Below, in pieces: positions 24,663 to 30,394 of a DNA stretch of 62,523 bases; within the stretch, counting starts at the first letter, position 1, and each line of letters begins with the position of its first letter. The notes beneath the pieces are model-generated. The model made no database searches. It was not told where the DNA came from and worked only from the letters and a program-made list of their open reading frames with translations. The DNA is from a virus. The DNA is taken from the IMG/VR virus record IMGVR_UViG_3300027969_000104, positions 1-62,523 of that record; one strand, given 5' to 3'. Both the position numbers and the translations under genes were made by a program.

Positions 24663-27600
24663 TTAACCTTGTTGCATTAACATTCGTTTAGTGATATCGT
24701 TTTGTCTAGACATAACACCTAATAATGAATCTAACTTTTCTAACTCTTGTGTTAATAGTGCGATCTGTTCCTCAGATCCACCACCACCACCGCCACTACT
24801 GCTGCTATTAGTTTGAACCGGGATTGTTCTTCCATCAGGCAGAGGAACTACTGCATCTGTACTAGATAATGCAGATTCGTATCCGCTAGATGGCGCACTA
24901 ATGTCAGGATTAGATGCTATACCACCCTTTTCTAAAGATTGTGTTGGTTTACTTGTTTTTCCTGATCTACGATTATTAATTTCTTGTGCTAAAAATGGAG
25001 AATCTTTAGGTAAACTAGCAGAAGTATAATCACTTCCCCATCCAACTAAACTTGAATGAGACGTATCTAAGTGAATATGTGCTCCACCTGGAGCTGAAAA
25101 TTCTGCACCTATTCCATTAAATCCTAAATCCATTGCTGTTGTGAAAACTTTATTTCTTTCTTCTTCACTTAATTGGTTAGCGCCAAATCCTAAATCAATC
25201 GCATCACCTGTTCCATGATTTGCTGCTCCAGCTCTAAATCCACTAGTAACTGTTAACTTTTTACCTATAGCTGATTCTATAGAAGCTTTCTTAGCTAATA
25301 CTGAATCTTTAACACCTGCTTCTTTTCCTACTCCAGAAGAAGCCGGCATACCTGCGCCACCAGAAGCTTCAGACGTAGATGAAGCAGAAGTTGGGCCAGC
25401 TGGATGAGTTGGTGCTTGTTCCGCTGATTTTGATGGCGTTTCCTTAGGAGGTGCTCCTCCAGCTGGAGCCGCTTCCGCGGGAGTTTCAGTTTTACCACCA
25501 GCAGCTTCACTAGTACCAGAACCAAAACTAAAAATATTTTTAACTTTATCAAACGTTGATAACAATAAATTTTTAGTACTATCAAGTATTGAACTAGAAG
25601 GATCATCTTTATTTTCTTTTGATTTACTCTGCAATGATTCAATCAATTCAGATAGTTGATTAGTTGTAGTAGATAAAGAAGAAAAACTTCTTACAACGGT
25701 TGGCATTGAACCAGATAAGCTGTTAGATAACAATTCCGAATTGTCTTTTTGTTCAGATAAAATACTAGAATATGATTGTGCCATATTAGATGTTTCATTG
25801 CTTGCAATTTTTGTCTGCGAAGTTGCTTGCGACATGCCAAGTTGAAAACTAGTAAGACTATTAGTTAATTTTCTCATCTGCTCAGCATTAAATTGCTCAG
25901 ATGATGGAGGAGAAATGATAGGAAAATTTTGATTAGCTGTTTGAATAGCAGGAGTACTTGTTAACAATTTTGTTGCTGATGTACTAGGCGCAGCAACTTT
26001 TCCACCGTCTGCATATTGTATACTTGAACTACCTGGTTTATTTAATCCCAATGCCTTAGTAGTTTCAGCATCAATAACATATTCACCCTTATGAACTATA
26101 CCAGCCGGTTCATATTTACCACCATGTCCCGTGTATCCGCCATCAGCAAAACCCAATTGAATTATTTGTTTGATCGCTTGTTTAGCTTCATCTTGTGCTT
26201 TGTCTGGATTTCCAGGGTACTTCTTATGCATAGCTTGAGATGTTTCTAACCACTTAGGATGTCCATATATCTGAGAAGGTCTAATTTCACCTGCCGCAAA
26301 TTCCTGCGGTTTCATTTGACCAGATTGTGTAATTGCCTGTGTGTCCTTGGCTATTTTTTCACTTATTTGAGCGCCATCGCCTGTATATCCGCCACCAGAA
26401 AATCCAGGAATATTTTTATTAAGACCCAATGATTTAGTAGTTTCTGCATCAATTACATATTCACCTGTGTGTACAATTCCAGCAGGTTCATATTTACCGC
26501 CATCTCCTGTATATCCACCTTTTGAAAATTCAGGAACTGTTTTGTTTAATCCTAATGCTTTAGTAGTTTCTGCATCAATAACATATTCGCCCTTATGAAC
26601 TATGCCAGCTGGTTCATATTTACCTCCAGAACCTGTATATCCTCCGTCTGAAAATAACCTACCAGTTAAAAATTTCACAGGAAGCATTGCAGCTGAGCCA
26701 ACTTTACCTAATAGAGTTGATCCGCCGCCTTGTTGTCCTTCTTTGCCTGCTAGTTGTCCTAATACTCCTGCTGCTTGTTGCACTACTCCTGAAAATGTTA
26801 CTAGCGATGAGGTAACAACGCCCATTCCAAGATCAAGTATTTTTTCTGTTGACTGAGCATAATCACGAATATTTTGATAGGTTTCAACAGTATTAGCAGT
26901 AACGCCTTGAAAAAATGTATTACCTTCCTTGCCATCAACTTGTTCCCTCTGTTGTGCTGTTGCTCCTTTCACACTCTTAGTGTGATCCATCATTGCAAGA
27001 TTTGTACCCCGTGCTATCTCTGACATAGGTCCAAAGTTTTTATCAAAAGCACCAACACGAGCCAAACCACCAAACTGTTTTATGGTTTCTGTGGTATCTT
27101 TACCAACTCTATTTTGAAATTCTCCTATATCTCTGCCGCCTTGTTGGATATAAGTAGCAGACCTGCCCAAAGATCGTTGAAATGTATGATAACCTTCGCT
27201 ATTAACAGCCCCTGCCAGGAACATAGTGGCATTTTTTTGCATAGCTGGTCCCATTGAGGACTTAGCCACTGCTAATACTTGTTCGTTAAATCTTAATTCT
27301 TCTTGAGCTTTTTTACCTTCTTCGCCGCCTCTTGCTGCTATTTGCTGTAATTCATAGGTCCTAGCAGCATATTGCTCAGTTGCCATTGCTTCCATGCGAA
27401 TATTATTCTGCTCATCCGCACTTAAGCCAGTTAATTTTGTTAATTTGTCCTGCTGAACCATAAATTCAGCAGCTGCTTTGACTGTCTCAGAGCTATCTTT
27501 CTCAATAGCTCGTCCTCCCATCTGCTGGAATTTTATATAATTTGCTATGCCAGAATTAATATCAGGAATAGTCATGCCCATACGCATAAATTGCGTACCT

Positions 27601-28187
27601 AATCCTGAATTTGTGATTTCTTTAGATATTTTTGAAAATTTAGTAAGACCTTCTTGGGCAGTTCCACTCATAACAGCTAATACAGTGGAATTTTGTTTCA
27701 TTAGGGAACCATAATCCCCTATTTCCTTTGCTGTATAGCCTGCCGCCTGTAGATTTTTAAAGGCATCATCCATGCCCTTAGCTAGTCCTGATCTACTTAA
27801 ATCCTGAAAAAGTTTGTACTGTTGATCTGCTAATACAGCTATTTTATTTTCTAAAAAAGCCAGTCCTTCTACAAATTTACCCAGTATATTACTGCCATCC
27901 TTAGCATTTTTGTTCCAATCTGAGAATGTTTTAGCTCCGGCAGCCACAACTTTATTGTAAGTAGCAGCTCCACCTTGACCATCTTGTAAATTTGTTGCAA
28001 GATCTAGAAAATTTGCGGTTAATGCCTTTTGACTAGCCCGTAATTGAGCAGAGTATCCTTTAATACCAACAGAAGCATCTTTTAACGAATCCCTAAGTGC
28101 CTGGGTTATAGGTGTTCCTTCGGCCAACGCCCTATTGTACTCGTCCACATAGTGTTGAATTTCTTCTGGTGTCATTTGATCTTGCAT
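24663..28187 (-). CDS. Tape-measure-like protein with M15 peptidase domain
   Basis: 1174 residues. The N-terminal ~450 residues are shared with the next gene. Four copies of KYEPAGIVHxGEYVIDAE lie between residues ~515 and 720, the motif found near the C-termini of lambda-type tape measures. Residues ~1000-1090 are a D-Ala-D-Ala carboxypeptidase-like M15 domain: TSGFRAGAANHGTGDAIDLG and GAHIHLDTS supply the zinc-binding His, Asp and His. It ends with STDAVVPLPDGRTIPV and a short helix, as in the paralogue. The function inferred is tail-length determination plus wall peptide cleavage. It is transcribed from a TATAAATA box whose end is 6 nt before the ATG. Confidence 0.78.
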   Translation of the reverse strand: MQDQMTPEEIQHYVDEYNRALAEGTPITQALRDSLKDASVGIKGYSAQLRASQKALTANFLDLATNLQDGQGGAATYNKVVAAGAKTFSDWNKNAKDGSNILGKFVEGLAFLENKIAVLADQQYKLFQDLSRSGLAKGMDDAFKNLQAAGYTAKEIGDYGSLMKQNSTVLAVMSGTAQEGLTKFSKISKEITNSGLGTQFMRMGMTIPDINSGIANYIKFQQMGGRAIEKDSSETVKAAAEFMVQQDKLTKLTGLSADEQNNIRMEAMATEQYAARTYELQQIAARGGEEGKKAQEELRFNEQVLAVAKSSMGPAMQKNATMFLAGAVNSEGYHTFQRSLGRSATYIQQGGRDIGEFQNRVGKDTTETIKQFGGLARVGAFDKNFGPMSEIARGTNLAMMDHTKSVKGATAQQREQVDGKEGNTFFQGVTANTVETYQNIRDYAQSTEKILDLGMGVVTSSLVTFSGVVQQAAGVLGQLAGKEGQQGGGSTLLGKVGSAAMLPVKFLTGRLFSDGGYTGSGGKYEPAGIVHKGEYVIDAETTKALGLNKTVPEFSKGGYTGDGGKYEPAGIVHTGEYVIDAETTKSLGLNKNIPGFSGGGYTGDGAQISEKIAKDTQAITQSGQMKPQEFAAGEIRPSQIYGHPKWLETSQAMHKKYPGNPDKAQDEAKQAIKQIIQLGFADGGYTGHGGKYEPAGIVHKGEYVIDAETTKALGLNKPGSSSIQYADGGKVAAPSTSATKLLTSTPAIQTANQNFPIISPPSSEQFNAEQMRKLTNSLTSFQLGMSQATSQTKIASNETSNMAQSYSSILSEQKDNSELLSNSLSGSMPTVVRSFSSLSTTTNQLSELIESLQSKSKENKDDPSSSILDSTKNLLLSTFDKVKNIFSFGSGTSEAAGGKTETPAEAAPAGGAPPKETPSKSAEQAPTHPAGPTSASSTSEASGGAGMPASSGVGKEAGVKDSVLAKKASIESAIGKKLTVTSGFRAGAANHGTGDAIDLGFGANQLSEEERNKVFTTAMDLGFNGIGAEFSAPGGAHIHLDTSHSSLVGWGSDYTSASLPKDSPFLAQEINNRRSGKTSKPTQSLEKGGIASNPDISAPSSGYESALSSTDAVVPLPDGRTIPVQTNSSSSGGGGGGSEEQIALLTQELEKLDSLLGVMSRQNDITKRMLMQQG

Positions 28188-28201: not shown

Positions 28202-28213
28202 CAAGGAAAAAAC

Positions 28214-29044
28214 ATGAATCCTCTAAGCCAATACTTTAGACAACCATCAATTTACATTAAATTGCCTAGCCAGGGAAATTATTATCCAGAGGGAGCAATT
28301 GAAATGCCACAAAATGGCGAAGTTCCTGTGCTGCCCATGACGGCTATAGATGAAATTACATACCGCACACCCGATGCCTTATTCAGTGGACAGGCTGTTA
28401 TCAATGTAATCCAAAGTTGTGTGCCAGCAATCAAAGATGCCTGGGCAATTCCTTCAATTGACATTGATTCAATACTAGTAGCTATTCGTATTGCTAGTTA
28501 CGGTCATGAAATGACATTCTCAACAACATGTCCTAGTTGTCAGAATGAAGATGAATACGGTGTTGACCTACGCACAGTACTTGATAGAATGAAAAAGCCA
28601 GATTACGCAGTTCCTATCAAACAAGGAGACATTGAGATTTACTTTAGACCAATGACTTACAAGAATCTGTCTGATAATAATAAAATTCAATTTGATGAGC
28701 AGCGTATTTTTCAATCATTATCATCGGAAGGTGAGGTTGATAAAACTCAGCTAACAGCTATGTCTGATGCACTAAAGCGCATGACCGAAATGACGGTATC
28801 TGCATTAAGCCAAAGCATTTTAACTATTAAAACTCCATCAGCTATGGTTACAGAACAAGAATATATCTCAGAATTCATGAAAAACTGTGATAGTAAGTTG
28901 TTTAATCTTATTCAAAATTATGTGGTTGAACATAAAGCCGAAGCAGAGATGCAACCTGTTACTATTAAATGTAATGCATGTGAGAATCAATATTCACAAA
29001 GTATTACATTGGACATGACAACTTTTTTCGGGCGCGCCTCCTAG
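28214..29044 (+). CDS. 26: Baseplate hub/tail assembly protein gp26
   Basis: 276 residues. YIKLPSQGNYYPEGAIEMP, PVLPMTAIDEITYRTPDAL and IDSILVAIRIASYGHEM are the T4-type gp26 family core. Two CxxC pairs (CPSC near residue 112, CNAC near residue 255) suggest a zinc site. T4 gp26 is required for hub assembly but is not a major virion part. AAGGA lies 8 nt before the ATG. The last codons run over T_TTT_TTC at 29023-29029, a textbook -1 slippery site, 13 nt before the stop; the -1 frame continues into the gp51-like sequence. The normal product is 276 residues; the frameshift product would be 348. Confidence 0.9.
   Translation: MNPLSQYFRQPSIYIKLPSQGNYYPEGAIEMPQNGEVPVLPMTAIDEITYRTPDALFSGQAVINVIQSCVPAIKDAWAIPSIDIDSILVAIRIASYGHEMTFSTTCPSCQNEDEYGVDLRTVLDRMKKPDYAVPIKQGDIEIYFRPMTYKNLSDNNKIQFDEQRIFQSLSSEGEVDKTQLTAMSDALKRMTEMTVSALSQSILTIKTPSAMVTEQEYISEFMKNCDSKLFNLIQNYVVEHKAEAEMQPVTIKCNACENQYSQSITLDMTTFFGRAS
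29023..29029 (+). promoter_or_regulatory. -1 ribosomal frameshift site T_TTT_TTC
   Basis: In the gp26 frame the codons are ACT TTT TTC GGG; slipping back one base at TTT TTC gives CGG GCG CGC CTC CTA and an open frame to 29259. A small hairpin, GATGCT-GAA-AGCGTC, lies at 29050-29064, and a GGCGCGCC palindrome starts 2 nt after the site. Confidence 0.7.
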
Positions 29045-29259
29045 TATTAGATGCTGAAAGCGTCTCCAAATACATTGATAAAATGGATAAGGAGATAAAT
29101 GATATTAGACTTGAGGCGTTACGCATGTCCTGGTACATGAGAGGTGGATTGCCATATGATCAAGCCTTGCAACTAAGTGTGTCAGAGAGAAAACTAATTA
29201 GTGGTATTATCAAAGATAACATGGAGACCACAAAAAAAAGTGGCTTGCCATTTTTTTAA
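29029..29259 (+). CDS. 51: gp51-like baseplate hub assembly extension (-1 frame of gp26)
   Basis: 76 codons read in the -1 frame after the slippery site, ending IIKDNMETTKKSGLPFF. EINDIRLEALRMSWYMRGGL and YDQALQLSVSERKLISGII match the small gp51-like protein encoded after gp26 in aquatic T4-like phages. The only useful in-frame ATG (29083) has no ribosome-binding site, and the frame is open back to the slippery site, so a fusion made by -1 frameshifting is favoured; a separate 58-residue product from 29083 is the alternative. By analogy with lambda G/GT, the short and long forms may be chaperones of the tape-measure protein encoded next door on the other strand. Confidence 0.7.
   Translation, partial: RARLLVLDAESVSKYIDKMDKEINDIRLEALRMSWYMRGGLPYDQALQLSVSERKLISGIIKDNMETTKKSGLPFF
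29232..29257 (+). terminator. Possible terminator overlapping the end of gp51
   Basis: An A-run, then TGG CTTG CCA, then a T7 run form a short stem with A-T extensions. It lies inside the last codons of the gp51-like frame. The GC part is only three pairs, so strength is uncertain, and the A/T runs could act in both directions. Confidence 0.4.
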
Positions 29260-29776
29260 GCTCCTTTTTCTGTTTTCTCCAGGCATGACTCCCATAATGT
29301 CAAGGATATCTTAAATTTCTTTTACCTTTAAGAGATTAGCTTCGCTAATCTAAGACTCGCTTACGCTCGTCTTATTTCTTTCCATTATTATTAGTAGTTG
29401 CAGTTGATACTATTCGTCTAGAACTAGGACATAATTCACCGTAAGCACGGTGAAAAAAATGTTCTCTTCGTCTGAGACTGAGGACACCTATTATAAAGAG
29501 ATTGTGCTTTCACACGCGGAGGCGGTTGACCGGTACCCCCTACTCTAGCTTCACAAATCAACGGAACCCTAGTGACCCTATAATAAATCAAAGTCCTATA
29601 AGCATGGGTCGTATCTTTTTCACGTTGCCCAAACCATTTGTTGCCTTAAGTTGGCTTTTGCCTTTGACACCCGAGTAAGCTTGCGCCTCTTCTATCCGAA
29701 TTGGGTTTTTCACCAATCCTCAACGGGGGTCGAGCCGCCTCGACCAAACGCTGTCAGTGTGATGCCTCCCAGGGTT
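29260..29776. other. ORF-free, GC-richer hairpin-rich region, possible structured RNA
   Basis: No coding frame of useful length on either strand. Composition differs from the genome: 33 GC in 60 bases at 29521-29580 and 34 in 60 at 29701-29760, against 20 in 60 at 29881-29940. Clear hairpins: AGATTAG/CTAATCT at 29333-29351, TTCACCG/CGGTGAA at 29435-29453, ATTGG/CCAAT at 29699-29717, and GGTCGAG/CTCGACC around a 4-nt loop at 29728-29745. This clustering suggests a large structured RNA, such as a degenerate intron or an ornate phage non-coding RNA. The strand is unknown, and no group I, group II, tRNA or tmRNA core could be identified with confidence. Confidence 0.4.
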
Positions 29777-29940
29777 TCACTGGTTCCGACAATAGTTTCG
29801 GGCTTCCCCTAACTTTGCTTGTTGATGCCTGTCTAATGATTTGTGTGATGCTTTATATAATGATTTAATAGTTTCGCAGTAAACATAACTACTTTCCGAG
29901 TTGGTGCGGTAGTAATATTTCACTGAAAAATTTTTGATGC
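29777..29940 (-). pseudogene. Remnant of a second GIY-YIG endonuclease C-terminus
   Basis: The minus strand reads KFFSEIL in one frame and then YYRTNSESSYVYCETIKSLY in the next, aligning with ENFTREILYYCKTKSECSYVEV of the intact GIY-YIG protein at 29966-30394. A frameshift near 29917 and a stop at 29777-29779 break it. At the DNA level 29882-29940 matches 30071-30137. The copy lies between 19-nt direct repeats, so it seems to be a decayed duplicate. Confidence 0.6.
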
Positions 29941-29967
29941 CTTACTGAGATGCCTATCTAATGATTT
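29824..29967. repeat. 19-nt direct repeats around the GIY-YIG remnant
   Basis: GATGCCTGTCTAATGATTT at 29824-29842 and GATGCCTATCTAATGATTT at 29949-29967 differ at one base and are 125 bp apart. The second copy overlaps the 3' end of the intact GIY-YIG gene. Confidence 0.75.
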
Positions 29968-30394
29968 AAATTTTGTTTTTAATATGACTACCATGTATAC
30001 GACAAACTATTTGTCCGTTATAGTAATCATCACTTTCTAATACACGATGCTTAAACTGTTCCCTAACCTCAACATAACTGCATTCCGATTTGGTTTTGCA
30101 ATAATATAATATTTCCCTAGTGAAGTTTTCGATGCCTAACTTTTCGATGTCTTTATTTAATTCTATGCTGCTGCCGGTGTACTGTTGCCAGTCTGAATCC
30201 ACTTTGCTTCTGATTTTCTTTCGTTTTTTGGTGCCGTTCTTAAGTTTTACTACTTTGTATGTTGTCTTACTAAATTTTGCTAATTTTTTTCCAATATATT
30301 TTCTGCCTGATATGTTATTGGTAATACAATAAACAAATCCGACACAATCTTCTGGTAGTATCTCAACATGGGTGTTTTCAAAAAGCCATAACAT
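29966..30394 (-). CDS. GIY-YIG homing endonuclease
   Basis: 142 residues. GFVYCITNNISGRKYIGKK at residues 19-37 contains the two GIY and YIG strands. RSKVDSDWQQYTGSS and KDIEKLGIENFTREIL follow as in the T4 Seg-like family, and the Glu in SYVEVREQF is the likely metal-binding residue. The enzyme cuts DNA at specific sites and promotes spread of its own gene. It follows gp46 on the same strand with 36 nt between. No clear promoter or ribosome-binding site is seen. The decayed second copy just downstream suggests repeated invasion. Confidence 0.85.
   Translation of the reverse strand: MLWLFENTHVEILPEDCVGFVYCITNNISGRKYIGKKLAKFSKTTYKVVKLKNGTKKRKKIRSKVDSDWQQYTGSSIELNKDIEKLGIENFTREILYYCKTKSECSYVEVREQFKHRVLESDDYYNGQIVCRIHGSHIKNKI

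Follow-up and report, generated by a model that had tools for sequence, protein, structure and literature searches.

The giant T4-like phage represented by the window, the whole 62,523-nucleotide stretch of DNA that was analysed (IMG/VR record IMGVR_UViG_3300027969_000104), very probably produces its tail assembly chaperone in two lengths by means of a one-base slip at the sequence TTTTTTC. As a preliminary description of the DNA had proposed, it is highly probable that gp26 and the gp51-like open reading frame in the -1 frame constitute one tail assembly chaperone gene expressed by -1 ribosomal frameshifting. The junction comprises the following features:

28203..28208, + strand: gp26 ribosome-binding site AAGGAA, 5 nt 5' of the gp26 ATG (sequence)
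28214..29044, + strand: gp26, predicted short tail assembly chaperone (TAC-N), 276 aa (PF12322, PHROG 150, alignment, AlphaFold2/BFVD)
29023..29029, + strand: -1 slippery heptamer T_TTT_TTC in the gp26 phase (sequence and comparison of relatives)
29042..29044, + strand: zero-frame TAG stop, end of the short product (sequence and list of open reading frames)
29029..29259, + strand: -1 extension (gp51-like, TAC-C), 76 codons and stop, predicted helical (conservation, pN/pS, hhalign, AlphaFold2)

The zero-frame codons at the site are ACT (29021), TTT (29024) and TTC (29027), and the heptamer lies 12 nt before the gp26 stop codon. The -1 frame starts with CGG (29029) and continues for 76 codons after the slip to a TAA at 29257-29259, so that both the phase of the heptamer and the openness of the second frame are as previously described. 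The extension begins with RARLLVLDAESV, and the computed gp26-gp51 fusion measures 348 aa compared to 276 aa for gp26 alone; the predicted tryptic junction peptide is CNACENQYSQSITLDMTTFFR for the fusion and CNACENQYSQSITLDMTTFFGR for the short product. The ATG at 29083, which the preliminary description had named as the only internal start, indeed lacks a Shine-Dalgarno sequence but is the first rather than the only in-frame ATG, and the program-made list of open reading frames shows no ATG, GTG or TTG in the -1 frame 5' of it. TTTTTTC is common in the window, with 26 copies compared to 20 for the reversed pattern, and the case must therefore rest on comparison. While the heptamer by itself is unremarkable, its phase and conservation lie far beyond chance.

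In order to compare junctions across T4-like phages, as had been suggested earlier, we searched three groups with gp26 itself as the query and without requiring the extension, and inspected the junctions of isolate phages. After removal of duplicates, the set covered the clade of the window, the RaK2, 121Q, PA5oct and Atu_ph07 types, cyanophages, Cr30 and phiM12. All 168 distinct gp26 junctions, which fall into 33 clusters at 60% protein identity, carry T_TTT_TTY in phase, as T_TTT_TTC in 166 cases and as T_TTT_TTT in two (Cr30 and phiM12). HTVC008M, left out of the 168 because it is located on the other strand, has T_TTT_TTT followed directly by a stop. A search based on the extension had found 80 viral contigs, with TTTTTTC at the expected place in 74 of the 79 examined; in the other five the match began further downstream, and the analysis based on gp26 later found the heptamer in those groups too. 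As a control, other Phe-Phe pairs in the same DNA of the two largest groups are written as T_TTT_TTC in only 14 of 390 cases (3.6%; 6/166 and 8/224 by group). Across 60 sequences of the window clade, third-base identity is 1.00 within the heptamer compared to about 0.5 nearby, and the two heptamer positions that could freely vary synonymously hold T without exception in the sequences compared. The final C may owe part of its conservation to the Arg codon begun there in the -1 frame. One group counts against the frameshift reading, namely the Ackermannviridae, where the -1 open reading frame is kept without a canonical heptamer. At these loci (L112:1226-2180, L247-L264) a conserved, unannotated -1 frame (FHLIFEIDLLSYFVMCDELKAHGYS...) follows gp26 and is conserved even 5' of its own first ATG, and the gp26 junction reads GARATTTTCATTTAAT, with no canonical heptamer. 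The comparison also bears on the possibility that one continuous gene was split by a homopolymer error in sequencing or assembly, since altering the T run by one base would bring the two frames together; as 168 distinct sequences share the junction, among them the isolate genomes of many phages, this explanation is already refuted and its probability negligible.

The -1 frame is a real protein-coding sequence under selection. It remains open in all relatives, with 60-80 codons in all junctions. Among window-clade sequences it has a pN/pS of 0.60 from the gp26 stop to the first ATG and 0.34 past the first ATG, compared to values above 1 in the other two frames, which contain stops. Between the window, RaK2, PA5oct and Atu_ph07 groups the extensions are homologous (hhalign E-values from 1e-7 to 1e-28), and that of the window is predicted to be helical (AlphaFold2 pLDDT 86.5). 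Could gp51 nevertheless be a separate small gene, started at the internal ATG (29083) or by reinitiation after the gp26 stop? It is annotated as such in S-PM2, P-SSM2, Cr30, phiM12 and 121Q, starting at or just past the gp26 stop, in some cases with a TAATG or TGATG overlap. However, a Shine-Dalgarno sequence is absent from nearly all such starts, and only one of the 60 window-clade sequences has one before the start. Within the first 25 codons of the -1 frame, the PA5oct types offer no start codon, and thirteen of those 60 have no ATG at all. Protein selection already acts 5' of the first ATG, which is predicted by a fusion and not by a separate gene, and a separate gene would leave the invariant synonymous bases of the heptamer unexplained. 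We therefore regard a separate gp51 as very improbable, and -1 frameshifting as the reading to be preferred.

Signals that might stimulate the slip differ between the groups. In E. coli dnaX, an internal Shine-Dalgarno sequence about 10 nt upstream is followed by the heptamer, a short spacer and a hairpin. The cyanophage junctions share this plan, with GGAG, GAGG or AGGA shortly 5' of the heptamer in 72 of 84 junctions. The Glu codon there is GAG rather than GAA in 71 of 83 cases compared to 27 of 80 elsewhere (Fisher p 7e-12, ignoring relatedness). An 11-bp hairpin lies 5 nt 3' of the heptamer; it was seen in single-sequence folds and then tested for covariation in an alignment omitting L148 and L149 (weak folds), and its covariation score was reached by none of 500 shuffles, with one pair occurring as UA 35, GC 11 and AU 8 times. 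The internal Shine-Dalgarno sequence and covarying hairpin are seen together as a dnaX-like cassette at L096:2196-2226 and other cyanophage loci. Single-sequence folds also gave strong hairpins in PA5oct and Atu_ph07, while RNAalifold, applied to ungapped clade alignments, yielded no consensus hairpin for the large clades as wholes. The dnaX cassette (PMC5009743) belongs to another gene and uses another heptamer, and the window clade has neither stimulator: an upstream Shine-Dalgarno sequence is absent and no downstream hairpin is consistent. The RaK2 types likewise show neither element consistently. For the window clade, a possible downstream CCTCC...AGGAG pairing was discarded, as AGGAG is missing or unplaced in most sequences.

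As the window clade lacks the stimulators, its slip efficiency could be low or set by an unseen factor. One tentative and rather unlikely reading is that the window clade and the RaK2-type jumbo phages use the same ancient site with an efficiency set by another signal, the candidates being distant RNA pairing, the nascent peptide, tRNA supply or a phage factor. The cyanophage elements also bear on a different origin of the fusion, in which slippage of RNA polymerase on the T run yields an edited mRNA that is then translated normally. A run of six T is present (seven in Cr30 and phiM12), and longer A/T runs are known sites of transcriptional slippage; however, T6 is short for such slippage, the run keeps exactly to the phase of two consecutive Phe codons, and a Shine-Dalgarno sequence and spaced hairpin act on ribosomes. 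We consider polymerase slippage very improbable, marginally more so than a separate gp51 gene, and return to ribosomal frameshifting below.

The assignment of gp26 rests on several comparisons. It matches PF12322 (T4_baseplate, gp26/gp51) with 58.3 bits against a gathering cut-off of 24.5 (E 1.1e-15) and PHROG 150 (baseplate hub) with 1.7e-18, and its alignment shows two invariant CxxC motifs (C106/C109, C253/C256) and an invariant final Phe-Phe. The AlphaFold2 model, built from an alignment of window and viral-contig sequences only, has a pLDDT of 84.9; its best BFVD match is "Baseplate hub assembly protein, bacteriophage T4-like" (E 6.7e-25), and a fold search of the PDB gave no significant match. 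The search of BFVD also matches uncharacterized proteins of other jumbo phages (Erwinia Special G, Ralstonia RSL1 and RSF1, Motura, PaBG), which, judging from the predicted model, are possibly unrecognised tail assembly chaperones.

Within T4 itself, gp26 and gp51 each match PF12322 over its whole length and are therefore paralogs, while the other reference phages examined hold one copy each. T4 gp51 exceeds T4 gp26 in length by a C-terminal tail, and its alignment with a virtual gp26-51 fusion of the P-SSM2 clade runs from end to end (E 6e-8; tail alone 1e-6). This, in combination with the paralogy, would indicate that gp26 corresponds to a short and gp26-gp51 to a long chaperone, and that T4 encodes the same two forms in two paralogous genes, the short one in gene 26 and the long one in gene 51, as judged from sequence. 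T4 gene 26 ends in GAG TTC TTT GAG, keeping the Phe-Phe in a form that is not slippery and with the -1 frame closed, and genes 26 and 51 look like a case of frameshifting replaced by gene duplication, with this direction being putative. PMC3004832 lists both T4 proteins as chaperones of hub assembly and gp51 as absent from the particle. The gp26/gp51 naming used in the preliminary description holds with one qualification: the window extension alone shows no significant similarity to the T4 gp51 C-terminal tail (hhalign probability 0.4%, compared to 91.3% for the cyanophage extension), and its gp51 label rests on position, architecture and the homology of the gp26 part.

Of the two neighbouring genes listed here, the first fits the earlier remark on tape-measure-like genes beside the junction:

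24663..28187, - strand: tape-measure protein, 1174 aa (PHROG 24, tail length tape measure, E 1.4e-33)
29966-30394, - strand: SegE-like GIY-YIG homing endonuclease, downstream of the gp26-gp51 gene (PF19835, E 3.4e-33)

The tape-measure protein contains repeated GGYTGxGGKYEPAGIVHKGEYVIDAETTKALGLN units at roughly 26000-26700. About 700 nt without long open reading frames (29260-29965) separate the -1 frame from the SegE-like gene; within this gap a short inverted repeat lies near 29330-29372. The gap holds no tRNA, and comparison with Rfam gave nothing credible, a 7SK match at 29908-30025 being below the gathering score and taken as chance.

With an in-phase heptamer close to the 3' end of gp26, an open and conserved second frame devoid of start signals of its own, and an adjacent tape-measure gene, the locus has these sequence features of a G/GT-type arrangement, and the earlier comparison with lambda stands. 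Like lambda gpG/gpGT (PMC5009743), it would give a short product and, through a slip shortly before the first gene ends, a rare -1 fusion. The heptamer is a different one, gp26 is divergent from the tape-measure gene rather than upstream of it, and the likeness involves no claim of sequence similarity. Most ribosomes would end at 29044 and release gp26 (TAC-N, 276 aa). At T_TTT_TTC, a minority would slip, with both tRNA-Phe moving back one base from TTT TTC to TTT TTT, and would translate through 29256 to yield the 348-aa gp26-gp51 fusion (TAC-NC). If the roles are as in lambda, the gp26 part would cover the tape-measure protein and the helical extension would bring in tail-tube subunits, and neither product need remain in the virion. 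The slip in cyanophages would be boosted by the internal Shine-Dalgarno sequence about 10 nt upstream and the hairpin 5 nt downstream.

Frameshifting is reportedly conserved in several T4-like groups, with T4 using genes 26 and 51. A frameshifted tail chaperone is already known, including in T4-like phages, to which the window clade and several jumbo-phage groups are added here. G-T frameshifting was described as conserved in long-tailed phages "except T4" (PMC5009743). As represented in later papers, Vladimirov, Gautam and Davidson (2022, Virology 566:9-15, doi 10.1016/j.virol.2021.11.003) identified the T4-like tail assembly chaperones in short and long forms, with a short chaperone gene and a long fused one (PMC10885494) and polyT -1 slippery sequences in the TAC-N genes (PMC12846349). 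To the extent that these papers convey it, the window gp26-gp51 belongs to the same family with the same two forms, and the novelty suggested earlier for such a frameshift pair in T4-like phages does not hold. That study may or may not extend to the jumbo-phage clades, the window clade and the stimulators of cyanophages. A polyT (GTTTTT) -1 slippery site also ends TAC-N in Vandenendeviridae and Andersonviridae (PMC12846349), which are different phage families likened to gp26 by the slippery site. A literature search in which subscription papers were thinly covered returned none joining tail assembly chaperone, frameshift and jumbo phages.

Annotations in jumbo phages and cyanophages would change accordingly, with gp26, labelled "baseplate hub", and the short "gp51" becoming the two ends of one tail assembly chaperone. 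Conservation of the junction spans very distant T4-like phage groups, and the old observations on T4 genes 26 and 51 gain a testable role, that of a short and a long chaperone.
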